A stretch of 64,000 bases of DNA from Mesostigma viride (lineage: Eukaryota > Streptophyta > Mesostigmatophyceae > Mesostigmatales > Mesostigmataceae), in assembly GCA_009746045.1 (NCBI GenBank), contig RPFO01000213.1:11197593-11261592 (forward strand), read 5' to 3'. The position numbers were made by a program, and so were the translations under genes. Below, in pieces: positions 3,774 through 62,420 of the stretch. Positions within the stretch are counted from its first letter, which is position 1; each line of letters begins with the position of its first letter. The notes under the pieces were generated by a model. That model saw nothing but the letters and a program-made list of their open reading frames with translations, searched no databases and was not told the DNA's origin.

Positions 3774-6700
3774 GAGGAGGAGGAGGAGGAGGAGGAGGAG
3801 GAGGAGGAGGAGGAGGAGGAGGAGGAGGAGGAGGAGGAGGAGGAGGAGGAGGAGGAGGAGGAGGAGGAGGAGGAGGAGGAGGAGGAGGAGGAGGAGGAGG
3901 AGGAGGAGGAGGAGGAGGAGGAGGAGGAGGAGGAGGAGGAGGAATGAGTTAGCCAGGAGTTTACCGTTTGCTTCAAAAAAGAGAGTGAAGAGAGATCCAG
4001 CATAAAAAAGAGAGTGAAGAGAGATCCAGCATAAAAAAGAGAGTGAAGAGAGATCCAGCATAAAAAAGAGAGTGAAGAGAGGAGAGCGCCAACTTAGATG
4101 AGAGAGAGGGGTCACGATGAAGAGGACTACACCCACCCACTAAGCAGTCATGCCTATCAATGATGGCTATCAATAGTGCCTATCGGTGCCTATCCATAAC
4201 TGCTTCCCAGAAGGAAAAGTAGACAGCGGCCACCCAATCCAACGATCAGCCACCAGTCAACAACACTGCCGTGGAAAAATGAGCCCATGCCTCTAGTAAC
4301 CATCCACAATTTTTTCTCGTGAAACTGCACGGCAGTAACGTGGCATGGACTGGCAAACAGCCAAACTTGCGAGCCTGGTGGAAGCAGCAGTGGCACATAC
4401 GCGTCACCTTCGACTTGGGCACATGGCTGGTAGGCGCTCGAATATTATAATATGAAAAAGGCGAATGGACTATTCCCACAACTGAACAGCGGCACAATCC
4501 ATACCCTTGCCAACCAGAGAACCAGTGGAATTATACTACTATAACATTACTCAAAAGTACATTATTTTTTAGATAACAACCGTCACCATAAGGGCACCAC
4601 ACGTCCTGACGCATGCATACGCTCTTCTCGCCTGCATGCAGATAAACTGTACTAGACGCAGCTACCAGCACTCTGAAAAAAAGACGCCATGAACGCTTTC
4701 GTTCCCTCAGGCCCCGCCCAATCACCTTCCTCGAATGGCCAACAATAACCCCACAGAAACTACGAACCATCTTTTAGCTATAGCTACGATGGTTACTGCT
4801 GTAGCAACCCCGCGACGCACACGCCGCCGCCGTCTACATTCATACACCACCACGCGCCCCCCAATCATGAGGACCATCACGCCAACGGGAGCATGCACTT
4901 TCAGCGGGCCAGAAACACCCCAAGCAGCACCCCCATCACGAGCTCCCTCACCCAGATGCAAACATAGCCATAAACCCTACGCCCTGGACCCTGAAAACAG
5001 TACCATCGCTCAGCAGGGACCTCTCGGGCGAACCGGCCCCAACCGACTCTGAATTGGGCCCACGCAGCGCCCTCTGCCTCTGCTGCTGCGACGAGGATGG
5101 CTGCAAGGATGATGCAGGGAGCAGCACCGGAAACCCCAGCCGTGTGGCGACCAGGTTCCACATCTTTTCCAGCGAGGGGTCGCCCTCTAGCTCCATCGCG
5201 CGCTTGAGGAACGCTGCCACCTGGCGCTCCAGCCTATCCCTGGTGTGGAGCGAGAGCATCTGGAGGGGAAAGGGGGGGAGGAGGGGGCGATAGGGGTGTG
5301 GCGCGGTGAAATCGCATCGCCTGAGTCGCATCGTCGGTGTCACTAACTAGGTTTGTTGTTGTCACAGTAAACAATTAAATACACTTGTAACGGTAACACA
5401 CTTGTCGATCGGATGATGACCAAGAGTTTTCCGTAGTATGCAGCTCGGGGTGGGTGGCTGTTTACGATATATGTTCACCATACATGGTGACCAAGAGTTT
5501 TCCGTAGTATGCAGCTCGGGGTGGGTGGCTGTTTACGATATATGTTCACCATACATGATGACCAAGAGTTTTCCGTAGTATGCAGCTCGGGGTGGGTGGC
5601 TGTTTACGATATACGTTCACCATACATGATGACCAAGAGTTTTCCGTAGTATGCAGCTCGGGGTGGGTGGCTGTTTACGATATATGTTCACCATACATGA
5701 TGACCATGAGGTTACCATATTCGACGACAGCTCGTGAAAGATGCAAGAATCCAAGGCATGCCCATCCGCGCACAGGACTAGGCAGGTACGCTAGCGACAA
5801 AATCCTCTACTTACGACCCACATTGCATGCATGTGAGGCAAAGCTCGAGCGAAAGGGCTCATGGCTTGGCAACACTGTGATCCACTCTGTAAACTTAAGG
5901 GGGGGAATGTGGGTATCCCCTGACCTACCCCTCAAAAATAAAGAATGGCCCCTGTTGCGAGGTAAATGGAGCAAAGCGATGATGTGAATCGCAAAGCTAT
6001 GACACCTTTAGCTACATCGAACTAATAGATTCGGCCAATCCGTCCCCCTGTAGGACGTGATACACAACTGGTACTTCATAAGTTCATCACCATGGGATGG
6101 ACAGGCTAGAATGGACTCAAGGACAACATTGCTAGGACAAAACCCGCAGGCACTACACAGCGAATGCTGGAGCATTTATGGCCTCATTGGTAATGACGAC
6201 CCTAGAGCCCAGAGCGACCAAGCACAGGACGTTACCGAAACCCACCCTAATTGCGACCTGCGGATTGCGCCCCATGTTGGCGCATGCCAGCTTAAGCTCG
6301 ACCATGCGAGCCCTCCTCCGCTCCTTCTCCGCCTCTGTCATTTCAAACGGCCCCAATTCGTCCTCATCCTCGCTATCCGGGCTATCGTTCTGTCCTTCTT
6401 CCGTCTCCTCCGGAAACCAGGTTTTGATAGCTTCCCCGAAAGCCTTGGCCGAGCCCTGTTTGAATTTCTTTCCGACGACGGAGCCATGCAAAGACTGCAG
6501 AACCAGGACCGTTTTCATTTCCAGCAGCAGCTCGTCGACTTTATCTCGGAGCTCATACCTGGCATCCGATAGTCTCGAATACTGTACGCAAAGTAGGTGG
6601 CGCAGAAAACATCAGAGAGCCATGCGTTACAACGCAGCAACGTGCGCAAGCGAAACCCACGAGCTACGTATCATACTGTGGTGTGGAGCACGGGAAAAAA

Positions 6701-7057
6701 AAAAAAAAAGTAACTGTGGGCTAACCTGGTATCATTTTATGGCCGCACAGAAAAACGAACCTGAGACCGCAGGTTTTCCAGCACCCCGAGAAGCGATTCC
6801 TCAGGGGCCCAATTGCCCTGGAGGCCAAGCGTCGAATGCGTCACAACGTAGAGAAGGTACATCCGCTTTAAATCTGGAGCCTTCTGGGTTCGTTTGCTCA
6901 CCAGAGGAACCAGCTTTTCTATTACGTGCTCAAGTTTTTCCCGGCTTGTGGCGTCCCACACCCAAGTGCCGATATACTTCACCATGAGATAATCCAACAA
7001 TTTGTCTTCGCAATGCATCATGTCAGGCGCTGCCTGACTACCGCTGGCGCCAGGCAT
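57..7057 (-). CDS. Multi-exon nuclear protein with a C-terminal Myb/SANT-like start (3' end outside window)
   Basis: Inferred exons, in transcript order: 7057-6761, 6581-6246, 5259-5004, 3482-2648, 1712-1256 and 295-57. The phases agree at all five junctions, giving about 806 residues before the window ends at a GTGAGT donor. The start ATG at 7057 follows an in-frame stop. Exons 1-3 are rich in amphipathic helix. Exon 2 has an acidic stretch followed by a basic helix. Exon 4 is low-complexity, with basic clusters (GKRK, QPKRR) that suit nuclear import. The last visible residues, KRWTLAEETLFLQEVKK, match the first helix of a Myb/SANT domain (W..EE..L...V), so the DNA-binding part probably continues left of base 1. 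A C-terminal Myb is the layout of TRF-type telomere-binding proteins, but the rest shows no recognisable TRFH domain. Junctions 2/3 and 3/4 are the least certain, because other donors fit. Function unknown beyond probable DNA binding. Confidence 0.55.
3511..3943. repeat. Compound triplet array (GAA)n-(GCA)n-(GGA)n inside an intron
   Basis: About 67 GAA units (3511-3711), a short GGC-rich join, about 13 GCA units (3730-3769) and about 58 GGA units (3770-3943). In the sense of the minus-strand gene this is pyrimidine (TTC, TCC) for most of its length. It ends about 30 bp before the CAG acceptor of exon 4 at 3482. Confidence 0.95.
3974..4090. repeat. 29-bp minisatellite, about four copies
   Basis: Head-to-tail copies of a purine-rich unit of about 29 bp (a run of A, then GAGAGTGAAGAGAGATCC). 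It sits in the same intron as the triplet array. Confidence 0.9.
5415..5701. repeat. 71-bp tandem repeat, four copies
   Basis: The word GACCAAGAG recurs at 5418, 5489, 5560 and 5631, an exact 71-bp period with very few differences. A fifth, diverged copy begins at 5702. It lies in the intron between exons 2 and 3 of the minus-strand gene. Confidence 0.95.
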
Positions 7058-7557
7058 GGTCCTTCCGAAATCCACAGTTCACTTCATCAATACCAAGCTA
7101 ACTTTGCTCCTTAATCACCATGAATGCCGTGCCCAATCGCTTTTCTACTAACACAATTGCAGACAAACATTCGCAGCCATGATAGCCTTTAGGGTTTAGG
7201 GTTTGCAAATTGCAACTTCGTAAATTTGCTGTCCCTTGCTACTGTACGTCTACAGCATGTGCTGTACGTATGTACCGCCACCGACTAGTCGACTTACGAG
7301 TTACGACTACCGACGCCCAACGATTTCAACGCTACAATGAAGCAGCGCGGCGCGCGGCTTTCGAGCCTGTCGGTCCGTTAGTCAGCTGATGAATCCCACG
7401 CCTTGCCGTTCCTGTACTGAGTAGTGAGTACTGACCCTCCACTATAGATTCTCTGTTACCAGCTGCCCATGTGCGGCGTGGGATTCAACTAAACTAACTA
7501 ACTCCATGACAGTCACACGGCACACCTGACTGACCATTCAAAACTACGGTAATCTAC
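7058..7557. other. Intergenic DNA upstream of the Myb-like gene
   Basis: Apart from the telo-box at 7188-7204 I see no gene or clear repeat here. It should hold the promoter of the minus-strand gene. No TATA box could be assigned with confidence. Confidence 0.4.
7188..7204 (-). promoter_or_regulatory. Double telo-box upstream of the Myb-like gene
   Basis: On the minus strand this reads AAACCCTAAACCCTAAA, two overlapping telo-boxes, about 130 bp upstream of the start codon at 7057. In plants, telo-boxes are promoter elements and are bound by Myb-type telomere-repeat proteins. A regulatory role here is inferred from position. It could also be a short telomeric relic. Confidence 0.35.
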
Positions 7558-7873: not shown

Positions 7874-8630
7874 GGACCATATTTTTCAGACTCATGAGTC
7901 TGGATGCGCATCCAGACTCACCCGAGCCTAGTGGCGCGGTACTCCAAGCAGGTCCGTAGCAGGTCCGTAGCCTGCATACAAGGCTCGCCTGTCGGCCGCT
8001 GGGCCTGCGGGCGCGTAAATTACTGTAGTTGGGCGCCGTAAGTGCAGCCATGGCGGGAGAAACATTCCGGAAATTGACGGGGGCGGCATGGACATTTACC
8101 TAAACGTAGATTGACGTTTCAATATCTTGTTGCTAAGCATGCAAGTTATCATTAATTGCAATTCGATAGATAAGGCATTTTATAATGGATTTTCTCCAGA
8201 GCTTGACAGTGTTTGTCGTGGACGACTGGTCCAATCCAGTAAATCAAGGGTCGGCATTACTATCGATTGTTCCTTTAGATTGCTGCATTTGCCAATTGAG
8301 CTTCACTTCGAAGAGTGATATTGCCTTGTTATGTTGCCAGGCGGAGCAAATGTTGCCAGGCGAGTTACCGTCGACTGTGCTCGCCATCACCTTGCAACAG
8401 TTGTAAGTACATGCAACTGGCGAGCGGGGTTGCTGGTGCTCTTTTCTTTCCTGCGAGCTGTCTTGGTTCTTCTGCGTTGTGCATTGTTTCTCGATGCATG
8501 TAGGAGCGCGCATATAAGCAGGCTTGCTTTCTTGGGGTCAGGTCCCGATGGTGCGTTGTCAATCGAGGGAGCCCATCATAATTATTTTTATTGTTTTTAT
8601 TTTTTATTTTGACGCAGGCGTGCTTGCTGG
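7874..8630 (+). repeat. Left terminal inverted repeat of the large element
   Basis: Matches the reverse complement of 13165-13894 at high identity, including the self-complementary stretch GAGTCTGGATGCGCATCC near the outer end. The left arm has a T-rich insertion near 8578-8612 that the right arm lacks. Confidence 0.9.
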
Positions 8631-13164: not shown

Positions 13165-13894
13165 ATAATAAGCAACCAGCACGCCTGCTTGACGGGCTCC
13201 CTCGATCGACAACGCACCATCGGGACCTGACCCAAAGAAAGCAAGCCTGCTTATATGCGCGCTCCTACATGCATCGAGAAACAATGCACAACGCAGAAGA
13301 ACCAAGACAGCTCGCAGGAAAGAAAAGAGCACCAGCAACCCCGCTCGCCAGATGCATGTACTTACTACTGTTGCAAGGTGATGACGAGCACAGTCGACGG
13401 TAACTCGCCTGGCAACATTTGCTCCGCCTGGCAACATAACAAGGCAATATCACTCTTCGAAGTGAAGCTCAATTGGCAAATGCAGCAATCCAAAGGAACA
13501 ATCGATAGTAATGCCGACCCTTGATTTACTGGATTGGACCAGTCGTCCACGACAAACACTGTCAAGCTCTGGAGAAAATCCATTATAAAATGCCTTATCT
13601 ATCGAATTGCAATTAATGATAACTTGCATGCTTAGCAACAAGATATTGAAACGTCAATCTACGTTTAGGTAAATGTCCATGCCGCCCCCGTCAATTTCCG
13701 GAATGTTTCTCCCGCCATGGCTGCGCTTACGGCGCCTAACTACAGTAATTTACGCGCCCGCAGGCCCAGCGGCCGACAGGCGAGCCTTGTATGCAGGCTA
13801 CGGACCTGCTACGGACCTGCTTGGAGTACCGCGCCACTAGGCTCGGGTGAGTCTGGATGCGCATCCAGACTCATGAGTCTGGGAAAATACCTCC
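13165..13894 (-). repeat. Right terminal inverted repeat of the large element
   Basis: Inverted copy of the left arm. The open frames seen in both arms are conserved only because the DNA is duplicated. I see no coding signal in them. Confidence 0.9.
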
Positions 13895-14717: not shown

Positions 14718-17700
14718 ATGGTAGAGGCCGGGAATATGTCAATTAGAAAGTATTTACCTAGAGATAGCGCGGCCAGGCGACTGTACGTGTTCCACTTCGC
14801 TTCGGCTGCGCTGTCCTTGTTTATCGCGGCGGCCTTCATTGCGCTGATGATGCAAATTGAAAGGTAAATATGGCAGAATCGCCTGCTCGCTGCATTTTCA
14901 CTCACCTCAAGCCGTCCTTCGTTCAAATGATTGGTGGCTCTCTATTCGTGTATGGGATTAAAGGCCTCGTCATGTTGTTTGTCCTGGGCACTTTCATCCG
15001 TTTTGGCTTGGCCGCCTGAACCTCAGGCGTTCCATGAATTTGGTAAATCGCAAGATGGAGGATCTGCTTCTCGGGGGATCCCAGGCGCGGGAAGATGGCC
15101 AGAATCAAACGCTGAAGGGTCTGCAAAAGGATCTCCAGAATCACATGTCCCTTTTGCTCGAAGCGTCCACGAACAGTGCAGAAAAGATGGTCGGATGGGT
15201 TAAGGTAAGTCTGCTCTGGCATCTGCCAATTGGAATTTCAAGGTCTGGTCGATGACGTTGAGTTGGGTGCATTAGTTGCATCTGAAGTTGCCGTATGAAT
15301 TGACTTTCGAATTCATAATATGGTCAGGTGTTTTGTTTGGTGATAGTTCGTGCTGCTCTGTAGCATGGCACTGCAATGACACAATGGTACCTCTGCCCCT
15401 GCCATGGTTACCATTGGTAATGCGCATGCAATAACTTTTCTGCCTTATCAAGCGGGGCTTCACGTGGTCGTCCGGATTATTATCGAGCCTGAATCTGGCG
15501 GAGCCTGACATCTTTTAATACTTGGCAACCGTGTAGTCTACTACTTCAGCTGTCGGCAATCTTTAGAGATAAGCCTCACTTTGGAAGCTTTGGTTGTTGT
15601 CTTGCGCAGGCACACGGTCTGTGGGTGCATATCTATCTTTCTGGCCTGCACTGGTCGTCTCTTTGATATCCATGATTCGATGGGCTCCATGGAATCATAG
15701 ATATGTGTTTCCTGCTAGATCTTGGCGCAAAGAAAACTTGCTGGGGCTTTTCAGTGAGAAAGAATTTTTTGTAGGCTCAACAGTCAACGCTCTGCCTATA
15801 CCTCGGCAGGGCCCGCCATCTTCTCGGCTAGGCCCACCACCTTCCCAGCAGGTAACGTGAAGTTTTGAACTGCTTTCTGTTTAATATACCTAGAGTCAAA
15901 ATTACAGACAGATTTGCTAAGCAAACACGGCGCCATGGTCACGTTTACCTATGCCCGACACGGTACTGTGACCATTGGCCTTACTTTGTGGGTTGGTAGG
16001 GACTCGAAAGGGGTATCTTAAGTAAGTAAATAGCTAACGCAACTGGACTACAATCGCGCAGCAGTACCATGTAGCTCCATGCTGCCATGTTTCCCGAGTC
16101 ACAAAAGGGTCAAGCCTACATTGCTGTCTGTGAATTACAATAGCATGGTGTGGCAGGCACGGATTTACAGGCGCCGAGTATCGAGGATTGTCCTTTTTTC
16201 TTCTCGGACATCACGCACGGAGTGGCTGGGAGTAAGGGCTATCGGCGGTGGTGGATGGAAACAATATGCTTTCTAAGTTTGACTTTATCAAGGGTGTCCT
16301 ACGTACAATCCCCCCCAGGGATTGTAAGACGGTGCGAGGTGTTTATGCTCACCTATCGTTTTCGTGTAACACCAGCAAATGAGATAAACTAGGTTAGTAT
16401 TAATAGGTTAATATTGTTACCATTTGAATGCCCGAAGGTTGGCTTGCGTGGATGGGGATGCGTAGCAGTCACTAACTTAAAGTGCCCGCGCTTTCTTGCT
16501 GAACTCACGTGGACCCTGGCAATTTTTAAAAGTTTCAACTCTGGCATTCTTTCAACGGCTGTCCCCCAACCAGGTTGGCTTTGAGCTTGAGGACTTTGGT
16601 GACGGCCGCCAGCTGGACCTGAGCGACCCCTACCACCAGGGCGCGCTGGACGCCTACCTGCACATGCTGCTGACCACGCTGCTGGAGACGATGGATGGGG
16701 GGGGCGGCAGAGACGGGGGCGGGGGGAGTACCCAGGCGAGCCTGAACGGGATCTATATCGGGTCCGTGGACGGGTACTTTCGGGGCATGTTCACCCACCC
16801 CAAGCATCCAAACCGCCTCGTGCGGGAGTACGCAGGCCCTGGTGTCTACAACGGCTGCCTCATGAGGGACTGGATCCCCCTGTCAGGCCCATCGGGATGT
16901 GGCAGCGATGGAGGTAATGATGTGGGTGGGAAGAACGGGTCATCGTCCAATGGCGGTCGTGCGGACAACGTCACATGTGAATTCTCGCTCAAGGACCTGC
17001 GGTGGTTCGCGGACGCGCTCTCTCAGGACGCCAAGGACGCGGCCAGCGACATCTCCAGCAGCTGGGCGGACGGCGTGTGGACGCAGGTGTACAGCGCGCT
17101 TGATGGGCGCGGCCTCGTGATGACGTACGCGGAGGTGATATATGATGCCAACGGCACCGCGGTGGCGGTCGCGGCGGCCGACGTGGCCGTGCCAGCGCTC
17201 AGCATGAGTTTGCAGGACGCGGTGAGCTGGAACTCGTCAGGCAGCAGCACGCTCATGGTGATTTTCGAGGAGGACGGCGACGTGCTGGCGAGCTCCGACC
17301 TGAGCATCGCTGGTAGGTCAGACTCGATTGGCCAGGGGCTGGGAGGCAGCCTTAACGCCAGCATGACCGCGCCATCACAGCGGCTCAACATCCTTGAGCA
17401 CCCGCACGCGTTCGTTGCCACGGTCGTGGGTCTGTATCTGGCATCCGCTCAGTCTTCCCCTGGTCCCAACCCCCAAGGGGCAGGGGCAACCATGCCTTAC
17501 GATGAGCTCCACACATTTGATACCACACTGCCGCCGCCACCGCCGGAATCGGTCGCTGGGGCCCTGGCTTCTCCCGACACGGCTCCTCCCCCCCCTGCAA
17601 ATGGGACTGCCCCGCAGTCGCCGGACGACCCCGCACCCCCACCCGCAGAATTGGAGGGGCCTCCTCCATTTCCTCCGGGTCCTGGCACCCAGGACTATGT

Positions 17701-18620
17701 GGTGTTTGAGTACGAGGACCCGCACGTGTTCATGGGCCGGGTGGGCAACGAGGTGTTCTTCTCTATCTCCCGCCATGCCTCGCGCAACCAGAAGTTCCGC
17801 CTGCTGGCCGTGCTGGAGCTGGAGGCGGCGCCTGAGGCGGAGCGCAGGGGTGCGTGGAAAGGGGGGTGAAGAACAGGGGCTTTAAGAAGGGGAAAACCAT
17901 AATAATTATGGCATGTTATTACACATACGGGAGCAGCACGATTTGAATGCGAGGCTTCAAGCACGATTTGGGGGCTATCAGGAGATGCTCTGTTGACATG
18001 GCTGGTATGCTGTGAGATGCACGTTATTCATGAAAAACTCACGCGGATGTGTAGGGAACGATTTTCGATATTTTTTCTGTCAATTCATGATGGTGCAATA
18101 GCTGTTCTGGATATTCTGCTTTTTCTGTATACCCTTCTCCCCTCCCCTTCCCCTAACCCGCCGCCCCCCTAACACCCCCCCACACACACACCACCACCAC
18201 CACCACCACACACACACACACACACACACCATTGCCTTTCTCCTTCCACCATTATGGAGCCTTTTCTGTATACCCTTCTCCCACACACACTATTGCCTTC
18301 ACCTGCCACCGTCGCCACGTGCCCGTGGCTGCCCATGCTCACATCACACGTGCAGAGCAGCTCTCTATCAAGGCAGTTAACTAAGGCACGTGACTGCTAT
18401 GAGGGCCAATCTAGGAGGTAGAGCCAATGACAGTCCAATCATAGGGTTTACTGACATTTTTTAAACTGCAATCCTGCCTCCATTTTTCGCAAACCCCCCC
18501 CTGGCTGCTGCCGCTCTCCCCTCGAACCCCCCAGGCCACATCGCCACCATTGTCTTCACCGTGATCGCCGTCCTCTGCGTCGCCGCCATCTTCTACCACC
18601 ACTCCTTTGTGGGCGCGGCG
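14718..18620 (+). other. Sensor module 1: TM1, extracellular dCache-type domain, TM2
   Basis: Residues 21-45 form the first membrane helix after a basic N-terminus (RKYLPRDSARR), which favours a cytosolic start. Exon 2 is a long polar helix, as in chemoreceptor periplasmic domains. Exon 3 has the Cache_1 strand pattern: VWTQVYSA, then GLVMTYAEVIYDANG and a strand ending in DVAVPALSMSL. Several N-glycosylation sequons (NVT, NSS, NAS) fit an extracytosolic face. A proline-rich loop (17524-17690) precedes the last strands. TM2 is encoded by the first bases of exon 4 (GHIATIVFTVIAVLCVAAI). Confidence 0.7.
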
Positions 18621-19040
18621 CTGTACCGGGCGCGCGCGGCCGCGTTCGACAGCAGCGTGCCTGTGTCCAGGCAAGACAGTGGGCCCGTGGCAGGGTGCTC
18701 TAATAAATCTGGCCCCCGGGACATGAATGGCCAGCATAATGTGCACCATTTGGGCTCGTCTGGTGAGCTATCGGATTCCCCGTTGAAAGGGAGCCAATCA
18801 GCTTGTGTCAAGCCTCCACGGACTCTCTCGGCACCGGCGTATTCCCTCCAGATGGCGTCCCCATCCCCCGGGGGTTTGCAGGGGGAGCCCTTGTCCCCAC
18901 CACCGAGTGCGACTGTGCAGGTCTCCCGTCCGCGGCGCCTTGGCACCTCCCTGCAGGGCTTTGTGAAGTGGCTAGTCACGCCGGTGCTGGTCTTACTGCC
19001 GTTAGTGCCTTGCCCACACGAGTCGCGGGAGCTGCAAGGG

Positions 19041-19087
<47 letters not shown>

Positions 19088-21201
19088 GCTGGTGGCGCTG
19101 CCAGGACAGGTGGCGGGCGTGAAGCGGCTGCCCCACTTTTGGTCGACCATGGCAGTGTTTGGGTTCCTGCTGGCAATCCTGTGTGCATTTGCGCTGGGCC
19201 TCACGTGGCGGCACCAGTCGTACAGCGTGCTGACCGTGGTGCGCGACGTCGTTGTGCGCGGCAAGCTGGCCTACACACAGCACTACATGAACAGCTTCTT
19301 CCTGTGAGTGAGGGGGGGCCTATATGAACAGCTTCTTCCTGTGAGTGAGGGGGGCCCTACACGAACAGCTTCTTCCTGTGAGTGAGGGGGGGCCTACATG
19401 AACAGCTGCTTCCTGTGAGTGAGGGGGGGCCTACCTGCTGTATGCCAAGTCGGGTGCACATGCCGCCTGATATATATACTAGTATTATATATTTAAGAAA
19501 TTAACCAGGTTGGGTTCCATTGGATTTAGGACGGTATTCTGGTCTTTGCATGGTATTCTTCACTGGATGCCGCCGCTAGTATTTTATCTGATGTAGAACA
19601 CCCATGGAGCATCTGGGCCTTCCTTTGCCTGGTAGCATGCCGAGGAAGGGTGGTGATTTAATGCATTACCTGGCATTGTATAAAGGTGCGTTGCCTGGTA
19701 GCACATGGAGGAGGGGGTGTTTAATCATTTTATTGAAGGGGTTAATTAAGGGGTGGTTACCTGTCAAAGTGTGAAGATAGCGATGTTAAATGTATAACAG
19801 AACCATGATTGAGCAGCCAGGGAAATAGCTGTTGAAGCAACTAACTTTGTAAGTTAAATATGGTAGTCATTCCGGATTTTTAGTCCAAACATAGCAGCGT
19901 CTTGTAATTATTGCGGACTTGCTATTTCTGATGCAAAGCCTAAATAATTGTTACTGTGTTAAATGCAGTTTCGACTAACTTGAATGCACCAATTGACGTG
20001 CTCCTGCCAGGATTTGCTGATATAATATTTTCCAACTTCAACTCTCATCAAGCAGCATCTACGCTATCTCTCTTTATTCTTATAGTATAGAGAAAAAGCA
20101 ACACCGGCTATCCGAAAATCATCACTAACCCATTGTATCTTCAAAGAAAATCACTAACCCAAACGCATCTTTTCTGTACCCCTGCTGCCCAACCCCCATG
20201 CCTCGGCTCAAATGCCTCGCCTCTCGCCCTCAGTGACTCGCAAATCGGCCCCACCTTCCTGGCCGCGCGCGCCGCCCTGCGCGGGTCCGCCGCCACCTGG
20301 ATGAACTACGAGCCGCCCTCACCCGTGCTGTGGCGGGGCACCGGGGCAAAGCTGCCATCCTCCGACAACGCCACGGACCTCGTCGACGCCACGCAGGTGA
20401 CGGGGAGGAAGAGCCTGAAGCTGACCAAAGCGCAGGACGAGCTGTACCGCCACTTTGACCGCGCGATCTATGCCGCGCTCTCCGTGCTGGCCGACCGCGG
20501 CGTGGGCTCCCGCTGGGTGATGTCCGGCGGGGCCGGGCTCGCGGTGGACAGCATACACGCGGCGGCGGCGGGCATGCGCGTGAACAACCTCTACTTTGGG
20601 CTGTCTAACGGCGACTTCATCGGCATCTGGTGCCCCTACGTGAGCGTGGGCAGCGACGGCGGCAACGGAACGGACCTCGGCTGCTACTTCTCAATCATCG
20701 AGCAGAAGAGCAACCCGGTGTTCCGGCTCAAGCACCGCCCCGTGTGCGACGTGCTCGAGCGCGGGGGCGGCCAGGTGGTGGACGGCAAATTCGGGCTGAA
20801 TGTGTCAATGGACACAGACGGGCTGGGTGTCCAGGGTCCCGCGCAAGGGCTGTGCGACCCCTCGTCCACCTACCGGCGGGCGACCGCGCCGTACGAGGAC
20901 CAGGGATGCTCATACGACCCGACCGTGCGGCAGTGGTTGGTTTTGGGGCACTTGGTGGTTGTCTCATGGACATGATGGGTCAGGTTGTGATGTCACTTCT
21001 GAACTGCAAGCAGAAACAAGCAGGAAGAAGAAGTGAGAAGCAGTTTGAAGTGTGCTGGACTGTAGAATTGCGTGGACCTTTTTATCGTATTCTTAGAGGC
21101 CGTGGTAGTCCACTTATTGGCACGAATGGCCCCCTGTGTATTTATTTGGTCGCCCCCCATCTTGCTTTGCGCTCCCCCCCCCCCCACAAACACACACACA
21201 C

Positions 21202-21250
<49 letters not shown>

Positions 21251-24200
21251 CAGGTACAAGCGCGCGGCCTTGTATGGCACGCCCATCTGGTCGGACCTGT
21301 ACACGTTCGCCAGCAACACCACCGGGTCCACGCTCGGTCTCACCTACGCGGTGCCCCTGGCCGGCGAGGCAGCCACGGATGAGTCGCCGCCCCCGCCGCC
21401 CCCCCCCAGCGAGACCATAGCTGTGTCCCCACCAGCTAGTGACGACACGGCGGGCGCCCCCCCTGCGTGCGTTGACTTCACCTCTGGGATCCACAACGAC
21501 GGGGATGGCAACGGGACCGCGGAGGGCAAGGAGCTGCTCGGCGTGTGGGCGTCAGACGTGTCCCTGAAACAGATCCAGGATGTGCTGGTGGCGCTGGCCC
21601 AGGGGCTGGGGTCGGCAGGCCAGGGCCGCATCATGGTCGTGGACGACCACAACCTGACGCTCATCTCGTCGTCGCATGCTGAGTCCCTGGGCGACGCGTC
21701 CGGCTCGTCGGCGCCGATCAAGATGTTCGAGTCCAAGGATGCCGAGGTGGCGGAGACGGGCTCGTTCCTGCTGGGTGTGTCGACCGACGGCAACTTGACG
21801 GCGCACTACGGCACGTTCACATGGCTCCTGCGCGACAACGACTCGCCGCTCACGTTCGTGTTCCCGATGACCATCGCCCAGGGCCTGCGCTGGATGGTCG
21901 TCGCGACCACGCCACGCGATGACTTCTTTGCCGACTGGGACGCCGAGTTCATGTGGCTCTTCCTCCTGTCCACCGCGCTCGTGGTCCTCCTCTCCTGGGC
22001 CGCGCAGGTGTTTGTGGGCGTGTTCGCGGCCGCCGTGCTGCAGCGCTCGGCCGGCGGCATCCCCCTGGGCACCCTGGGCGACCCCTGGAAGACGGCGCTC
22101 TTCCGCTCGCGCCCGACCGCCGATTCCAGCTTCGGGCGCACGTCCTCGGGGGGCAGCGCGGGCGACGCCACTCTCCCACGCGCGCGCTCGCTCCCTAGGT
22201 CGGGCTCCGGCTACTCGCTCGACCTCGCGTCCACAGGGACCACCCTCGAGTCTCCCTCGGAGAACGAGCATGACCCGGGCGGGGGGGGCGCGGGGGCTAC
22301 TGTCACGGGCTCCGGCGGCCGGCGGGGGTTGCGGCCCGGCAGCGCGCGTGCGGGACTCCGGCAGCGCGCGGCCACGGTGGGCGCGGTCGCGGCGTCCTCG
22401 GGCGGCCAGATGCAGAGCCTGCACAAGCTGATGGGGCTGTCGTCCACGAGCAAGGAGTCGCTGGAGAGCGTGCTAACAGGGATCATTGGCAACGTGATGA
22501 TGGCCGCGCACGCGAGCTGGAAGCGGCTCCCGCTCGGCACGGGCCGCTCGGACGTGGACCGCGGCCTGCGCGCGCGCATGCTGCACCAGCTCGAGCACGG
22601 TGCGCACTCGGGCCGCGCACTGCTGGGCACCGCCACGCGCAGCTGGCGGGGCAGCTGGCGGGCGCGGGGCGCGCGGCAGGAGCGCTTCTGGCGCACGTCC
22701 GGGCTTGCCCAGCGCGGCAAGGACGAGGGCCACGAGGGCATCTCGCGAGAGGACAGCGAGGCTAACCTGCCGGTCGCGGGGGCGGGGAAGGGGGAAGGCC
22801 CCATGGAGGGGCCGTCCCTCTCTGACGCGAACCATGCGGTGGAGGTGACCCCGGTCGTACGCACGGCCATAGGGGTCCCACTCATGGTGCGGACGCCAGG
22901 GAAAGGCTACCCGTTATCGGCCACGGAGGGCGTCAAGAGCCCGGCAAGGGAAGCCGTGGTGAACGTCAAGGAGAGTCCGACACCTGGCCGCGCCAAGCTG
23001 CAGGGGGTGGGTGGGAAATCATCAGGCGGGGGGGTGGCGGCCACCCCCTGGCACCGTCGGCTGTTCTCGGGGGCGAGCACAGGGACTCCTCCAGAGACGC
23101 CCCTCTCGGGCGACCCGACGTACCACCAGTACAAGACACACCTGCTCAAGCGCGCCGTGCAGCACATCAAGGAGGGTGACGCAGTGAGTGCAACAGGGAT
23201 AAATGCTGCGGGGTTGAGTGGCACGTTTAAGAAAAAAAAAGAAAATTGCAGAGCCACGCCATTCTCATTACTCTGTAATGTTGTGCACCCTTTCCTTGCC
23301 TCCTACGGCTTCGCTAGGCACCCCCTATGACCCTAAAAGGGGTTGGTCTTGCAATAACATTGGCTTGCGATAATTTGTCACTAGACAGCTTCTCGTCACG
23401 CATGTCGTCGTGACTTCATCGTTACACTGAAGCGTTTTGCACCCGTTCCTTGACTCGTGACTCGCTCCGAGTTTACTCGATGTCTGTCCCATCTCTGACG
23501 CTGTTGTATGCTCTTGCCGACTATCTTCATTTCTATTACATCAAACCCACCCTCCACCCCTTAACCCCCACCCCTTCACCCCCCACCCCAGAGCCGCAAC
23601 ATCATCACCCTGTGCGACCTGGACAGCCATGAGTCGCACTGGTATGCGCGCGCCTACGCGCTCGTGACCAGCCCGCACTGGCGCCTCTTCCTCGCAGGGA
23701 CCCTGCTAGTGCACCTGCTCGTCTCCTTCTGGCTCCCTGAGGACAACAAGGCGCTGCGCGACTTCTACCGTCAGCAGCCGGCCTCACGGTTCGATGACGT
23801 GTCCGTCGGGGGGCCAGATGGCGGTAACAACAACGGAAACGATGGGGGCATCCTCTCTTCTGCCCTACTCCGGCTGGGCTCGTCTCTCTCGGTCACGAGC
23901 ACCGCCAAGGCCAGCCTGCTGGTCATCCAGTTCCTAGAGCTGCTGTGCCTGTTCATCGAGAGCGCGAGCGTGTCCACGCTGCTGCTGGCCAAATACTACT
24001 GGGCCAAGCCCAATTTGCTCAACATGGACAACCTGGCCGCGCGCGTGTTCGACACGGCCGCCGTGCTCCTACTCGCGCTGCTCATCACCGACTGGGGGCT
24101 GCGCATGGTGCGTGCGCGGCATGTGCGAGTGTGTGATCCATGTCCCAACCACACGTTAGATGGCCACACGTTAGATGGCCACATGTTAGATGGCCACACG

Positions 24201-24569
24201 TTAGATGGCCACATGTTAGATGGCCACACGTTAGATGGCCACATGTTAGATGGCCACACGTTAGATGGCCACATGTTAGATGGCCACATGTTGGTGGTCT
24301 GCCTTGCACAGCGTTAGCACCGAACCTACTGGTCACCACACTGGTCACTGTAACTGTTGGGTGGTCTGCCTTGAGAAGCCATACGTTGTCCTCCTCACCA
24401 ACATGACCAAGGTCAACAGTATTGGAAACCAACCCCTGTTTTAGTGTACCAACCCCTATTTGGTGCGCATCTTGTCGCTCTTTGTGTTGGTGTTTCCTGT
24501 GCCGTCGGCTGACCTCCTTCCCCTCGCCCCCCCCCCCCCCCCGCACAAACACACACATGCAAACACACA

Positions 24570-24638
<69 letters not shown>

Positions 24639-27600
24639 CTTCCCCCCCATCTCCTCCCTTTCCCCCCCCCCCCCCCCCCCCTTCTCCCTCGCTCTCGGCC
24701 TCCCTCATTACCCATCCCCATCCCCACCACCGTCACGGTCACCAGGGCGCCCACTTCAGCATCGAGTACTACATCCCCCTGCGCGCGTTCCTGGTGATCG
24801 CGCTCAACCGCAACATGCGCGACTCGCTCGCTATGTTCACGCGCTCGCTCGCCGACGCGCGCGACGTGCTGCTGCTTATTGGCCTCATCATCCTGCTCGG
24901 CGGCATATTCGGCTGCATCCTATTCGGCCGCTCGCTCAACGCGGACGCGTTCGAGGACTCGTTCGCCGACATCGGCCGCTCCGCCATCACCATGTTCATC
25001 CTCATATCCACGGGTGCGTGGATGCAGGGGCCCCCTGGACGCCTTAGAAGGGCTTTCACCGTGGCCACATGTCACTTCTAAAGCGTTTGACTATGTAGGA
25101 CCGGCGCGACAGTCCCCCTGTAGGACGTGCATGACCCATAAAAAGGCTGAATTGAGTAATCAATATAATGGCCATGGTACATACTATTCATAAAGTATAA
25201 TATAGTACATAGGTATATTATTTTCTGTGTATGTACTTGCACTCATGCGCAGGGTTATGCAGAAAGAGGTATGCCCCAGAGAACACGTATAGAGAGGGTA
25301 GAGCCGTTGCCCTGTCACCGTGGCGTTGTGGATAGCTTTACTGGAATTACTTGCGCAAAAGTGAAATGTACGTACAAATCTTTGCGAGCAGAATTCTGAC
25401 CCTGTATCTGTCCCCGCTTTCGCCCCCGTTTCCTCCCATGCTCCCCCCCCACACACACACACAGGCGAGAACTATGCGGAGGTGGTGTACCCTGCGTCGC
25501 TAACGTACCCGGGCGCGGTGGCCTTCTTCATCTTCTGGTCTACCATCGGCCTCCTGCTGCTGCTGGCCCTCACCATCGGCACACTGCAGGAGTCGTTCGG
25601 ACACCTGGCGCACGAGAACCGCATCACGCGGCGGTACGTGGGTGAGCGGTGTAGAGCACACCAGGTCACGTGACGCCATATTGGTTTGTCTGGCCGACGC
25701 TACGGGGTGGTTTGTCTGGTCGGGGGTATATCTCGCTAGATTTCTGGCCTGCGTGGGTTGTCTCATTCTGCGTTGATGTCTGGCCTTCATGCCCATGCCC
25801 ATTTCCTTTGCAGGTGGTTTGTGGATGTGTAAGTGCCCATACACATTTTCGCTATGCCCTGATGACATTACTCTATTGGCTCACACTGCGGTACATATGG
25901 GGGTGTGCATGCTAATGGAGGTGGTGGATGTACTTGTAGGTTGCTCATGTAGGTCCTAAGTCTAGGTCCGCATCCACTCTTACTTTTTTCACTGCACCCC
26001 CCCCTATGGCTGCATGCCAACCCCATTCACCCACATCCGCAGGGTCTACTATCGCATGGCGGTCGCGGCGGCGTTTGCGCTCGTGGACGTGGATGGGTCA
26101 GGGTCCCTGGACGAGGACGAGGTGGTCAACTTCATGAGGCTCTACCGCCCGGGCTCCGAGGAGCAGCGGCTGCGCGAGGCGTTTGGGCGCGAGGCGTGGC
26201 GGGAGGCCATCATGCAGCGGCAGGCGGCGCGTGCGGCGGCCGCGCATGGGCACGCCCCCGGCGCCAGCAACTTCAGCAAGGGGGCGCGCTCGCCGCGCGC
26301 ACTCTCTGTCAATGGCGGCGGCAGCCTCCGCGCATGGTCCCTGCAGCCGATCCAGGAGGCCAAGGCCCCGGGCATGGCCATGTCGCCCGTGATGGCGGTT
26401 CCGGATGTCAGTCACAAGCACCCCGGCAGTGGCGGCGACTACAGTAGTAACGGTCACTCGGGCGCATTCATCGGTGTGGCGGGTCAGGCGATGGCGAGGC
26501 CTCTGCAGGGGGGCACAGAGGCCCCCGGCTATGGCGTGCCGAGGGACGTGGTGGTGCTTCATCACAAGGCCGCGGGGGTTGGGGCGCTGGACAAGGGCCC
26601 CTTGAACAGGGTCTCCAAGGAAATGGCGGGCGGGCATGCCAATGGCCACTCCGAGAGCTCCCCCACGGACCCCGGTGCCTGGACGGAGAACAGCGCGGGT
26701 CCCGTGGGCCGGTCCAGTCTCGACGCCGGCAGCGGTGGCGCGGGCCTGGCCATGGCGGACCACGGCCGGCGGGCCAGCTGGGACAATTCTGGCGCACGCA
26801 TTCTAGAACCGGGCAAGGCGACCCCTTATGTTGCCGGGGGTGCGGGCGTATCGACAGCTGGCCACGGGAGCCGTGGCAGCGACCAGCATCTGCACGATCC
26901 ACCCCCCTTGGAGGAGGGCGAGAGCGGCATGCTCAGCGGAGCGCCCTTCATGCGTGAATCCAGTCGGTTTAGCAGCGGTGGCCCCTCCGACGCCACCCCC
27001 GGCAAGGCCACCCCTCAGATGCCATCATCCGGCACCAAGACAAGCCCTGGAAATGCCACGAGGGGCGAACCCGCAGGGGATGTCCATGTGGGCGCTTTTG
27101 TTTCCCCCCCCGCAACCTCCCCCTCCTCGATCTCGCTCGCGCGCGTGGTCCGCCTCGTCCCCGAGGCCATGGGCGCGCTGCTGTCCCCCCGGTACGTTCG
27201 CCAGCAGGAGGAGGAGGCGCGCGTGCCCGTGACCCGATCGCGCTCGGTGCGGCCGCAAGAACTATTCGGGGCGTACGGCAGCTTCCGCCGCTCGCCCTCG
27301 TCTTCATCGGCCGAGGACAGCGAGGCGCTGTTGCGGGCAGAGCCCAGCCCGGGGCTGTTTGGTCCCGGGAGCTCGAACGATGGAAACGGGGAGCCGTTGG
27401 AGGGCAGAGCCATGACGGGCGACGGCAGCGCGCGCGGGATGTTCTCGGCGGGGTCCTCGTTCAGCTACTCTCTGGCCACGCCGGGCAGCGACGGCCGCAC
27501 GAGCATGGATCTGCCCCTCATCGCCCGCGACGCCTCCTTCTCCGACAAGGTGCCCAGGGACGCGTCCAGCAGGGAGGAGGGCGTCCCCACGACCGCGCCG

Positions 27601-28873
27601 GCCAGGGGCGCCCATGCCAAGGACGGCTCGGGCGGCTCGGGTGCCAGCCACGCGACGCGAGCGAGTGGCGACTCGGTCACGTTCTCCACCCACGAGGCGG
27701 CGCTCAGCTTCTCCCACAGAGTGGCCAGGGCGAGCGAGGCGGCGGGGGCACAGTATGCCGCGGGGGTCGCGACGGCCGCGCCGGGTGGGGACCCGCTGCC
27801 CAAGCCATCGACGATCTTACCACTGCTGCTGCCGCCGCCGGATCAAGCCGGCAAGGTGCCGCGCGGGCTGAGGCACGCGGAGCTCCGGGATGGGGGTGAG
27901 GCACCAGAACTAGTCTCGCCTGTCGCCAACGGGCAGCGCCACAACCCCGCCCACCACCACCACCACCACCACCAGTTGAGCCTTGGTAGTGCGCGCTCGA
28001 TCGCCCCCTTGATCCCTGGCAAGATGTCCTCGTCCTCCCTGGGCACAACTGGCACGGCAGGCAGCCTCGACCTGGGCTCGTGTGCGCCTGAGGACGAGGG
28101 CATGATCGAGGACGAGTTCGGGTATAGGTATAGTAACCGCTCGTACAATGACCGGTATCCCAGTAACAACCATGGCATTGACAAGAAGGCGCAGCGGGAC
28201 GACGGCCGCCCGACGGTCTCGATCGCCGGATTCACGCGGCTGCTAGAGGACAACTCGCTCAAGCTGCGGCGCGCGCGGTCGCACATGCACCTGCAGCGGC
28301 TGCTGCAGGGCCTCCTGGGCTCCCGCTCCTTCCGCGTGCTGGAGATGCTTTTCCTCATCGTCCACATCTTTAGCGGTGCCTGCTACGGGATCAACATCGC
28401 CGCGCTCAAGTGGTCGTCCAGCAGCGGCGCGGGCGGCCAGGACGACACGCGCGCGCTCCCGGTCGACGGCATCAACTTCTTTCTGACCATGTTCTTCCTC
28501 GCGCGCGTCGGGCTCACCGTGATCGCCTACGGTGCGTGCTAATGTTAGTGCGGCGGCAAGATTTTAGCACTGCCATATATAATTATATTTTTCGTGAACG
28601 GTATGCCTTTTGGTTTTCGCACTGCTATCGCGGCACTGTGGTACGTTGCGACAACATCCTTTAGTGTATGTCCAGGGTTCGGGGTTTAGGGCTTACGGTT
28701 CAGGGTTTACGGTTTGGGGTTCAGGTTATAGTTTGGGGTTCAGGTTATAGGGCGCAGCGGAGTGTGACCAACTGCTGCTTGTATGACGTGGTAGTCTTTG
28801 ATTAGTTAGAAGCGATTGGCCGGCGAATACGTTCTGACACCCACCCACCGCGGATCATCTTGATTTCATTTAA

Positions 28874-28949
<76 letters not shown>

Positions 28950-30149
28950 CCCCCCCCTGCCCCCAACACTTCTTGCCCCCCCCCCCCCCCTTTTGCCCAG
29001 GCCCCGTCGAGTACTGGTGGTACCACATGTACCGCCGCCGGCTGCACGGCAACAACACGCTGGGGGGCGAGCGCGCGGCGCGGTCGCCTGAGGACACGTT
29101 CCGCCGCCGCGGTCTCGCGCTGCTGGCAGTGGTCACCATCATCCTCCTGGCCACGTCCCTGGGCACGGGCCTGGAGAAGCCCGAGCTGCGCCGCCTGGCG
29201 CTCGTCATCTCCACCCTGCGTGTGTTCCTCCAGGTACCCTCCCTGCGCCACCTCCTGTACACGGTCTACGTCGTGTTCAACGTTCTGCTCGGGCTGCTGC
29301 CCTTTCTGGGCGTCGTCATGTACGTGTACGCGGTGTGGGGGGTCATGCTCTTCCGGGGCGCGGAGCGGCAGGTCGGGCTCAAGGACTCGACCGCGGGGTC
29401 GTTTGAGAACCTCGCCGAGGCGATGCTGCAGCTGTACCAGCTGCTGGTGAGTGGCGCGACCTTGCTTGTAGTCGCGCGATGTGCATACTACTGCTGCAAG
29501 GTTCTGCATGTTGTTGTACCTTACAGCTGAGTGACTGAGGCGCACCCGCGTGCTCCTATTGGCTCAATTTTATACCAGCGGCAGGGAAGTGGCGCGCCTT
29601 TTTTGTTCCCCTTCATTATCAGCTCAACCTTAACGTTGGCCATCTCCGGGTGTTTTTTTTGTGTGTACTTTGGGAAAAAGGGGAGGGGGGGGGGGGCCTT
29701 GCGAAGCCGTGGAGCCGGGGGATCAAGGATTGGCGAGATCATGGCTTGCCTCCAACATCATCGCTACTAACTGAGCCAACCCTCTTTCAGTGGAGCGCCT
29801 TGCGAAGCCGTAGCATTGCTGCACGGGATGGCTTGTCTCTTGCGGCATGAGACGGCTTGTCATGGCAGGCTTCTTGCTGCATGAGACAAGTGGCGGTTGT
29901 GAATGCACTGGTTCGAGTTTGATATAAACTCACTCTTCTGTCAACATCTGATCACACTCACCTCAGGCCTGTGTGCTTTTTCACTTAATGACCTACTGCT
30001 CCCCGCTCCTATTTTTTTGGCACTTTACCGTGCTTGTGCACTTGCCACTTGCCAGTGCTGGTGCATGCCGTGAGCACCTTCATCGTTTCTGTACATGTAC
30101 CTATTTACATGTATGTAATGGACACCTCGTCGACGTCCACACACACACA

Positions 30150-30208
<59 letters not shown>

Positions 30209-30630
30209 TCCATCCCTGCCCCAACACCATGCAACACCATATCTCCGCCACCACCACCACTGCATGCATCACTTACGGACATCACCCCCATGCTCCCCAC
30301 GACCAATACATACCGATCCCTGACCCCCCCACCCCCCACCCCCCCCTTCCACACACACAACAGCTGGGCGAGTCATGGAATGATGTCATGTACGACGCGA
30401 TCAAGAAGACGGACTGGTCCTACTGCGTCTACTTCCTCTCCTACATCATGCTCGTCACGCTCATGCTGGCCAACCTCATCCTGGGCGTCGTGCTCCAGGC
30501 CTTCTCCACGCTGCACAAGCACCGCAACCTCTCGCTCGCGCAGGCCTCACGGCTCGTGCGCGCCGAGGAGGAGTGGTTGCCGGGGGACGAGTCAGTCTCC
30601 CACAGCGTGCGCAGGCCCTCCGCCGGATAA
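14718..30630 (+). CDS. Receptor-channel: two TM-dCache-TM modules fused to an EF-hand two-pore (TPC/half-CaV) cation channel
   Basis: Exons inferred from GT..AG sites: 14718-14863, 15027-15204, 16574-17849, 18535-19303, 20234-20935, 21254-23183, 23592-24107, 24746-25013, 25465-25633, 26043-28531, 29001-29446 and 30364-30630. They total 9156 nt, or 3051 residues, with phases consistent at every junction. The ATG at 14718 follows an in-frame TAA. Order: TM1 (21-45), dCache 1, TM2 (about 535-555), cytosolic loop with about 14 glutamines, TM3 (738-757), dCache 2, TM4 (1254-1285), cytosolic loop, channel repeat I (about 1690-1980), EF-hand loop (2000-2011), low-complexity linker of about 730 residues, and channel repeat II (about 2745-3010). 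The channel-EF-hand-channel order is that of plant TPC1. The Cache modules suggest ligand sensing outside the cytosol coupled to cation, probably Ca2+, entry. The fusion is deduced from DNA only. An alternative is two adjacent genes, but no stop or start separates the parts. Confidence 0.75.
18181..18228. repeat. (CA)n/(CCA)n tract in intron 3
   Basis: Mixed CA and CCA repeats about 300 bp before the exon 4 acceptor. Confidence 0.9.
19284..19431 (+). repeat. Four tandem 37-bp copies that duplicate the exon 4 splice donor
   Basis: Units at 19284, 19321, 19358 and 19395, each carrying ...AACAGCTTCTTCCT|GTGAGTGAGG. The donor GT therefore recurs at 19304, 19341, 19378 and 19415. Only the first preserves the reading frame into exon 5. 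Reading past it meets TGA at once. Confidence 0.95.
21188..21249. repeat. (CA)n tract abutting the exon 6 acceptor
   Basis: About 30 CA units end only a few bases before the CAG acceptor at 21253, so the repeat stands in for the pyrimidine tract. Runs of C precede it. Confidence 0.95.
24139..24300. repeat. 15-bp minisatellite just after the exon 7 donor
   Basis: About ten copies of GGCCACAYGTTAGAT, with C and T variants mostly alternating to give a 30-bp higher-order unit. It begins about 30 bp inside intron 7. The frame stays open through it, but the splice phase places it outside the coding sequence. Confidence 0.9.
24546..24680. repeat. (CA)n tract and poly-C in intron 7
   Basis: About 45 CA units followed by long C runs, ending about 65 bp before the exon 8 acceptor at 24745. 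Confidence 0.95.
26043..26200 (+). other. EF-hand between the two channel repeats
   Basis: The loop at 26086-26121 reads DVDGSGSLDEDE, with acidic or oxygen ligands at positions 1, 3, 5, 7, 9 and 12, a complete Ca2+ site. It directly follows S6 of repeat I, as in plant TPC1, where cytosolic Ca2+ gates the channel. The second EF-hand of plant TPC1 is not recognisable here. Confidence 0.85.
26201..28290 (+). other. Very long low-complexity inter-repeat linker
   Basis: About 700 residues rich in Ser, Gly, Pro and Ala with scattered RS-type basic-serine motifs and a run of eight or more histidines (27952-27975). No folded domain was recognised. In TPCs this linker is usually only one to two hundred residues. 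The many serines next to basic residues suggest phosphorylation, but that is inference. Confidence 0.6.
28670..28750 (+). repeat. Degenerate GGGTTTAGGG-like repeats in intron 10
   Basis: Repeated variants of GGTTTAGGG, GGTTCAGGG and GGTTTACGG. They resemble a decayed interstitial telomeric tract. Confidence 0.45.
28874..28949. repeat. (CA)n tract in intron 10
   Basis: About 38 CA units, then C-rich DNA up to the acceptor at 29000. Confidence 0.95.
30139..30207. repeat. (CA)n tract in intron 11
   Basis: About 33 CA units about 155 bp before the exon 12 acceptor. A shorter ACACAC run ends three bases before that acceptor. Confidence 0.95.
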
Positions 30631-60880: not shown

Positions 60881-60954
60881 GGTAGTGGAACGGGACTATT
60901 TAGAGGCTGTCCCCGAAGCCTGTTAGCCGCGAGCCGACGAGGAAGGTTGTCTAC

Positions 60955-62130: not shown

Positions 62131-62420
62131 GGCTACGTTTAATAGCACCTAGACGATGGCAGGGGGCGCAGGCGCACGGCTCACGTGCGTGGTGCCGCCA
62201 TAACGTGCAGAAAAATAGCGATATCTGCTGGGCAGGCCGCCGGCGATAACTTTCGAAATCCTGGGCGATGGCTGCCAAAAATTAGATCAGCGTGTTCGTC
62301 ATCAAAAAGCGAGTCTGTAGCAATTTACCCGACCAAATTTCATGCCCGGAATCAAAAGTTATGAGCATTCTCGGCATCCATAGCTCGGCGCACCGTAAAC
62401 CGTCACGACGGTAAATTACC

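Follow-up and report, generated by a model that had tools for sequence, protein, structure and literature searches.

Two-pore channels (TPCs), represented by plant TPC1, animal TPC1-3 and diatom TPC1 and TPCL, are built from two six-transmembrane (6-TM) repeats with an inter-repeat EF-hand region, for which the available excerpts of one published account give two EF-hands in plant TPC1 and diatom TPC1 and none in TPCL, together with repeat II filters of the VNN, MGN or VND type and the view that TPCs are absent from chlorophytes, prasinophytes and red algae (PMC11085791). Cache domains have been described in a different set of proteins. The part of a 2016 survey available to us lists, among eukaryotes, animal alpha2delta, plant and fungal histidine kinases and one Naegleria cyclase (PMC4822843), and the animal receptor mGlyR is likewise reported, in an excerpt, to have a Cache domain (PMC12716839). 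Alpha2delta contains two dCache_1 domains per chain and Cachd1 is also a Cache protein, according to the sections available of PMC9901441, while Cache modules fused to a pore in one chain are mentioned, in part of an earlier study, for prokaryotic pentameric ligand-gated channels (PMC549065). Here we describe a predicted gene from the streptophyte alga Mesostigma viride, lying at 14718-30630 on the forward strand of a 64,000-nucleotide stretch (GCA_009746045.1, contig RPFO01000213.1, positions 11,197,593 to 11,261,592; hereafter the window), whose single 3,051-residue frame would combine modules from several of these systems: a transmembrane (TM)-Cache-TM unit, a TM-dCache-TM unit and a two-repeat, TPC-like cation channel with an EF-hand. 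That a single gene encodes such a receptor-channel, tuned by a small molecule, is in our judgement an evenly balanced proposition.

With the TPCs the predicted protein shares the two 6-TM repeats, the inter-repeat EF-hand and a collinear similarity to Arabidopsis TPC1 (AtTPC1), but it differs in having two Cache units and four extra TM segments in front, a glutamate in both filters, one recognised EF-hand, some 740 residues between this EF-hand and repeat II, and an unrecognisable N-terminal region. The filter glutamates (GE.W/GENY) and the top PDB score of repeat II, to CaV1, are features in common with the four-repeat CaV channels, whereas only two repeats are present here and the chain ends after the second. 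Alpha2delta and Cachd1 resemble the sensor half in their two dCache_1 domains per chain, the first of which in alpha2delta-1 has the amino-acid motif, and alpha2delta is a calcium-channel subunit (PMC9901441, in part); they are however distinct proteins that lack a pore, and in alpha2delta a VWA domain is inserted in the first dCache, while here the sensors are fused to the pore, each is flanked by TM segments, and no VWA domain was matched by Pfam at E up to 10 in residues 1-1318. The TM-dCache-TM module and its Y..R.WY..Y..D pocket recall bacterial dCache_1 chemoreceptors of the PctA type, whose output is a chemotaxis signalling domain in place of a channel. The prokaryotic pentameric channels with MCP-N/Cache fusions likewise hold a Cache-type sensor and a pore in one polypeptide, although their Cys-loop pore is unrelated and their extra sensor stands N-terminal to their own ligand-binding domain, as far as the available portion of PMC549065 describes them. 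The layout is, as far as the literature was searched, a new combination of known modules, and a new architecture rather than a new principle, because Cache-pore fusions are described in those pentameric channels. No fusion of a Cache domain with a 6-TM channel appeared among the literature matches listed (titles and abstract starts), and dCache was never found there alongside 'two-pore channel'. An earlier note on this DNA had stated that no TPC or calcium channel of this layout was known to its author and that in animals Cache domains occur in alpha2delta, as a separate protein; we too found no such channel, but the first statement needs the pentameric one-chain fusions set beside it, and the second, which holds for alpha2delta and Cachd1, leaves out mGlyR.

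The gene model joins twelve GT-AG exons in phase. Candidate GT and AG sites were picked by hand and all 4,608 combinations tried, of which 12 give an open frame from 14718 to 30630 with one terminal stop; the sole variable sites among these are the exon 5/6 junction and the donors in exons 7-9, and the exon 6/7 junction (23183/23592) is common to all 12. At exon 5/6 we used donor 20935 with acceptor 21254, picked for preserving the Cache motif YDPTVRQWYK. There is no in-frame stop over the 9,156 coding bases, GT-AG is found at 11/11 introns, and the donors read GTGCGT or GTGAGT in seven of the 11. Third-position GC is 0.85 for the coding sequence as a whole (the introns' overall GC is 0.45-0.56) and lies at 0.78-0.95 in exons 3-12, exons 1 and 2 being weaker at 0.62-0.63. 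In a leave-one-out comparison two donors (1 and 5) and two acceptors (4 and 11) come out as weak. The splice combinations and the switching of coding composition at splice sites bear out the earlier proposal of 12 exons read in phase as one frame. Introns 5, 7, 8, 10 and 11 have CA-rich tracts at most ~160 nt ahead of their acceptors, intron 7 contains a 15-bp tandem repeat at ~24150-24290, and a candidate mini-exon at 25814 was examined and left unused.

The channel half comprises exactly two 6-TM repeats of the voltage-gated type. Pfam places Ion_trans in exons 7-10 (6.8e-12) and again in exons 10-12 (2.5e-28), with EF-hand_1 between them (6e-5, 22.7 bits against a cut-off of 25.4), so that the order S1-S6, EF-hand, S1-S6 given in the note was confirmed. 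Repeat I begins in exon 7 (23592-24107) with S1 (23685-23741), S2 (23916-23972) and S3 (24033-24089), continues through S4, S5 and the pore helix to the filter residues STG in exon 8 (24746-25013), and is completed by the filter remainder ENYAEV and S6 in exon 9 (25465-25633). Exon 10 (26043-28531) encodes the EF-hand loop DVDGSGSLDEDE (26086-26121), which by eye has canonical acidic spacing, then the ~740-residue low-complexity linker and S1 and S2 of repeat II; S3, S4, S5 and the pore helix follow in exon 11 (29001-29446), and the filter LGESWNDV, S6, a short C-tail and the stop codon in exon 12 (30364-30630). The S4 positions are taken from alignment and not from hydropathy. A second EF-hand was not recognised in the stretches scanned, which covered the linker except residues ~2053-2698. 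The complete filters, STGENYAEV in repeat I and LLGESWNDV in repeat II, provide one glutamate per repeat. Both are split by introns, at 25013/25465 (STG/ENY) and 29446/30364 (LL/LGESW), in differing phases. When the window was scanned in six frames (pieces of at least 30 residues, both strands), a channel-repeat profile matched at E<0.001 only four of 1,275 pieces, those holding exons 8, 9, 11 and 12; neither strand of the 64-kb window showed a third or fourth repeat, and a stop codon ends the frame after repeat II.

Comparison with solved structures gives TPCs as 14 of the 15 best matches of repeat I, headed by 6c96 (6.3e-8) and with a bacterial ion transporter in second place, and in the PDB sequence search the alignment of this repeat to AtTPC1 continues through the EF-hand. 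For repeat II the top PDB match is CaV1, with 2e-29 as a sum across several CaV repeats, and TPC1 is matched as well (2.8e-9). BLASTP gives a collinear match to AtTPC1 (74.7 bits, 24% identity; E = 5e-18, which refers to a single comparison with the long linker removed) that starts at S4 of repeat I, crosses EF-hand 1 and reaches S6 of repeat II. The three TPCs compared have TSNN, TANF or TANS in the repeat I filter and MGNW, VNNW or VNQW in that of repeat II; none of the TPC-type repeat II sequences VNN, MGN or VND is present here, LLGESWNDV being calcium-channel-like. In a tree of 36 repeats, in which 9 of the 33 inner branches are starred, repeat I groups with TPC repeat I at 89/87 on a branch that is not starred, a placement that is not decisive, while repeat II falls in the half containing TPC II, CaV II and CaV IV (84/69) and does not join TPC II in the best tree; both repeats form very long branches. 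None of the six alternative groupings tested, CaV ones included, is rejected (p-AU 0.193-0.462, with 0.193 for a clade of repeat II and TPC II and 0.218-0.418 for the CaV clades). On sequence grounds the channel is TPC-like in layout, and we do not file it as a TPC because its filters are of the calcium type, one EF-hand is recognised, no N-terminal region can be recognised and the tree placement is not firm. The label 'TPC-type' used in the note is therefore kept for the layout and the collinear AtTPC1 match and given up as a class assignment. A possible TPC N-terminal helix across exon 6/7 (HLLKRAVQHIKEGD), tied second of 3,036 16-residue windows, would have been a strong argument that the gene is single, but was dropped when profile and shuffle tests proved negative.

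In the sensor half, the second unit is well supported as a dCache sensor with an intact putative amino-acid-binding motif. Exon 5 (20234-20935) encodes its membrane-distal part and ends within the motif (YDPTVRQW/YK); exon 6 (21254-23183) encodes the remainder, with a polyproline insert, then TM4 (21948-22037, limits hand-set around the hydropathy segment) and a basic low-complexity linker of ~400 residues. The intact region matches MCP-like_PDC_1 at 2.6e-4 (21.8 bits against a cut-off of 27) and dCache_1 at 0.013 in Pfam; with the polyproline insert removed these become 1.2e-8 (35.8 bits, above the cut-off) and 4.3e-7 (30.2 bits, below the cut-off of 45). NCBIfam gives a weak partial match to the phosphodiesterase model GepA (2.9e-7, 29 bits against a cut-off of 1200). 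The dCache_1 amino-acid motif comprises, in PctA numbering, Y121, R126, W128, Y129, Y144 and D173 (excerpts of PMC10104139 and PMC9901441), and all six have counterparts here, in the same order Y1017, R1022, W1024, Y1025, Y1040 (Y at 21300) and D1125 (D at 21555). The first five stand at exact PctA spacings, which occurred in none of 20,000 shuffles of the protein; D1125 owes its register to a low-scoring alignment (E = 0.16) with 6mni, a chemoreceptor chain. The motif core YDPTVRQWY, at 20913-21257, is split by intron 5.

Sensor I is the weaker of the two, probably a degenerate Cache domain. It is preceded by exon 1 (14718-14863; weak donor AAG/GTAAAT), with the start codon and TM1 (14796-14852), and by exon 2 (15027-15204; third-position GC 0.63), which runs from TM1 into the sensor; exon 3 (16574-17849) holds the dCache-like domain itself, with sequons and a polyproline insert, and exon 4 (18535-19303) continues, as an unbroken open reading frame (ORF), with TM2 (18540-18596), a linker and TM3 (19146-19202). 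The only Pfam match in exons 1-4 is dCache_1 at E = 0.0099 (15.9 bits), or 0.0033 (17.4 bits) with the low-complexity inserts removed. A search of solved structures returned no Cache chain at E up to 10, and no similarity to sensor II was detectable except polyproline; by eye W, Y and D are fittingly placed, and the arginine is not in register. We call it a Cache domain because the same Pfam family is matched and because it has the same position between two TM segments. The TM-dCache-TM arrangement claimed for both units thus holds in that both regions are membrane-flanked and that sensor II has profile and motif, the trimmed exons 5-6 scoring above cut-off, but is weak at exon 3, the match of sensor I staying below the cut-off even when trimmed. 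The linker of exon 4 contains an in-frame run of 14 glutamines (19044-19085).

The hydrophobic segments around the sensors span residues 27-45, 536-554, 738-756 and 1267-1285, the last hand-widened to 1256-1285. From composition one would expect 2.5 sequons in sensor I (residues 46-535), 2.3 in sensor II and 1.0 in the TM4-S1 linker; the counts are 7, 8 and 0. Sensors I and II are acidic, with net charges of -30 and -18, and the linkers are basic, at +8 between TM2 and TM3 and +17 between TM4 and S1. Because of this pattern of sequons and charge we favour a topology in which both sensors would lie outside the cytosol, with the EF-hand inside. The channel may reside at the cell surface or in the vacuole, both being possible: the di-leucine signal [DE]xxxL[LI] was absent from the five cytosolic stretches scanned except for one instance in the I-II linker, a possible sorting signal.

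Whether sensors and pore belong to one gene turns largely on a single junction. The unbroken ORF of exon 4 spans TM2 and TM3 and so ties the two TM-Cache-TM units to each other. Exon 10 does the same for the two channel repeats, since its unbroken ORF takes in the EF-hand as well as S1-S2 of repeat II. Joins 3/4, 4/5 and 6/7 fall between recognised elements; the first two are expected, since each Cache unit needs its own TM segments, and exon 6/7 is the critical join, which rests on splice signals and an absent start codon. Exon 6 ends in GCA/GTGAGT and exon 7 is preceded by CACCCCCCACCCCAG, both in phase 0, and third-position GC falls from 0.83 to 0.50 on reading through the exon 6 donor. Exon 7 has no in-frame methionine before S3, the first lying at 24024, past S2. 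As a stop 30 nt ahead of the exon closes its frame, exon 7 requires another exon upstream. These features support the claim that sensor and pore form one polypeptide, and we regard one gene as distinctly probable. Two neighbouring genes, a tandem Cache membrane receptor (exons 1-6, the frame stopping in intron 6 near 23328) and a two-repeat channel of its own (exons 7-12), would fit with the lack of any recognised domain crossing exon 6/7 and with the ~400 low-complexity residues of the TM4-S1 linker, and the in-frame ATG at 22884 in exon 6 could start a channel-only isoform via donor 23183 or 23006. The channel gene would however need its own first exon or an internal promoter. A scan for start exons took in the ATGs between 22884 and the 3' end of intron 6; its highest-scoring phase-0 donor was that of exon 6 itself (8.95 with itself included in the matrix, 6.65 when left out), near-equalled by 23006 inside exon 6 (8.89). 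Of the eight best donors listed, one alone follows an ATG located beyond exon 6, and the exon so formed, at 23327, has five codons (6.57). With this, the need for an exon upstream of exon 7 and the drop in coding composition at the exon 6 donor, we think separate genes unlikely, and see the ATG at 22884 as one that may give rise to a channel-only isoform. It is very improbable that the join is no functional gene but an assembly chimera or pseudogene: the region is repeat-rich, with an inverted repeat of 697 nt whose right arm stops 832 nt short of exon 1 and a LINE-type element downstream, and no homologue was found, but against this stand the coding bases free of in-frame stops, the high third-position GC of exons 3-12 and the GT-AG borders of every intron.

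For the single-gene receptor-channel we propose that two chains would pair to form a single pore, to which each repeat would contribute one glutamate; the resulting ring of four would favour Ca2+, and the dimer would then, as the note suggested, place four Cache modules around four pore repeats. The ectodomains would sit over the pore in the manner of an alpha2delta subunit built into the chain. Sensor II would alter pore opening on binding an amino acid, our first guess, or a similar small molecule, while sensor I, its pocket degenerate, may be structural. Coupling would more likely run through the ectodomain and TM1-TM4 touching the channel than through a rigid push, because the ~400 low-complexity residues between TM4 and S1 cannot form a rigid rod; in a CaV structure a Cache loop of alpha2delta-1 contacts the top of the pore region, as excerpts of PMC9901441 describe. 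Through the EF-hand, Ca2+ that enters the cytosol would exert feedback. We expect the dependence on voltage to be weak, since in the alignment used S4 of repeat II keeps just one of three basic positions of AtTPC1 (R537, R540 and R543), residues which we take to act in voltage sensing. The Cache domains of the single chain could instead be no ligand sensors but fixed ectodomains that serve in trafficking or as a scaffold, in a channel regulated by voltage or Ca2+, a reading we find rather doubtful. The out-of-register arginine of sensor I and the flexible ~400 residues between TM4 and S1 would agree with it, as would several statements on alpha2delta in the available sections of PMC9901441, where current enhancement requires the VWA domain, the effect of gabapentin at the Cache pocket is on trafficking, and Trp or Phe alone is neither agonist nor antagonist for the surface expression of alpha2delta-1, whose Cache pocket amino acids are thought to fill; the charge-poor S4 of repeat II speaks against a voltage-regulated channel of this kind.

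A number of observations weigh against the receptor-channel interpretation as a whole, beginning with the fact that the gene model is a prediction from genomic sequence. Sensor I falls below the curated dCache_1 cut-off of 45, and a Cache profile of sensor II exceeds its cut-off only once the insert is cut out. The sensor II motif crosses a junction whose donor was picked because it preserves the motif, and this donor (GTG/GTTGGT) is weak, 12.7% of the GTs in the window scoring equally. No profile matched TPC N-terminal cytosolic helices before S1, and the local scores to the N-termini of three TPCs were equalled by 362, 890 and 1208 of 2000 shuffles. As regards topology, six sequons fall in other cytosolic stretches (one each in the N-terminus, the TM2-TM3 linker and the C-tail, three in the I-II linker), and two further hydrophobic stretches, unmentioned in the note, exceed the threshold. 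Residues 303-321 lie within the Pfam match of sensor I and are taken for a Cache strand; if a true TM segment, they would break this sensor. Residues 675-693, between the sensors (18957-19013, in the exon 4 linker), contain three prolines; if a true TM segment, they would turn sensor II cytosolic, against which the sequons argue. AlphaFold models of two single-exon stretches have low confidence (mean pLDDT 36.3 and 42.7). No homologue with the Cache-Cache-channel layout was found, hence there is no support from conservation. Full-length protein searches with repeat II as region gave seven matches among 5,165 candidates, distant channels that are all four-repeat by scan; with sensor II as region there was none at E up to 1 among the candidates listed, and sensor II with the channel core (linkers out) gave, again among the candidates listed, one match, a fish calcium channel (7.5e-8). 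Viral and prokaryote contigs yielded no relative. All of them depend on exact word matches and on a length similar to that of the query, and so detect close relatives only and can miss distant or fragmentary ones.

The surroundings of the gene are rich in repeats. The arms of the inverted repeat (7882-8578 and 13190-13886, 98% complementary) enclose 4.6 kb with tandem arrays, and it is possibly a mobile element adjoining the channel gene. A non-LTR retrotransposon-like element occupies 57414-62148 on the minus strand, with a reverse transcriptase (RVT_1, 1.9e-23), an endonuclease (Exo_endo_phos, 7.7e-6) and, upstream, a further ORF that matches nothing in Pfam. Very long tandem arrays of short units, open in several frames and with IHPS, THPP and SHD-type repeats in their ORFs, lie at ~48.7-49.85, 44.7-45.3, 62.4-63.7, 10.25-10.7, 8.7-9.06 and 11.66-11.98 kb. 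At 4948-7078 on the minus strand, the ORFs 4948-5346, 6153-6611 and 6737-7078 resemble, by eye, exons of another gene. A tRNA scan (bacterial code) and an Rfam family scan of the window gave no match.

The predicted protein may be the founding member of a eukaryotic chemoreceptor-channel class, in which a bacterial-type amino-acid sensor is wired to a two-repeat, Ca2+-selective pore, a possibility to which we give slightly less than an even chance. If this were so, a nutrient or amino acid would gate Ca2+ entry, or vacuolar release, without a second protein, and the partnership of Cache domain and calcium channel seen in animal alpha2delta would also have been reached as a gene fusion. The set of eukaryotic Cache proteins in the 2016 survey would be extended, and the presence of the same pocket on the channel polypeptide would offer a one-gene system for asking whether a Cache domain gates a calcium-type pore.

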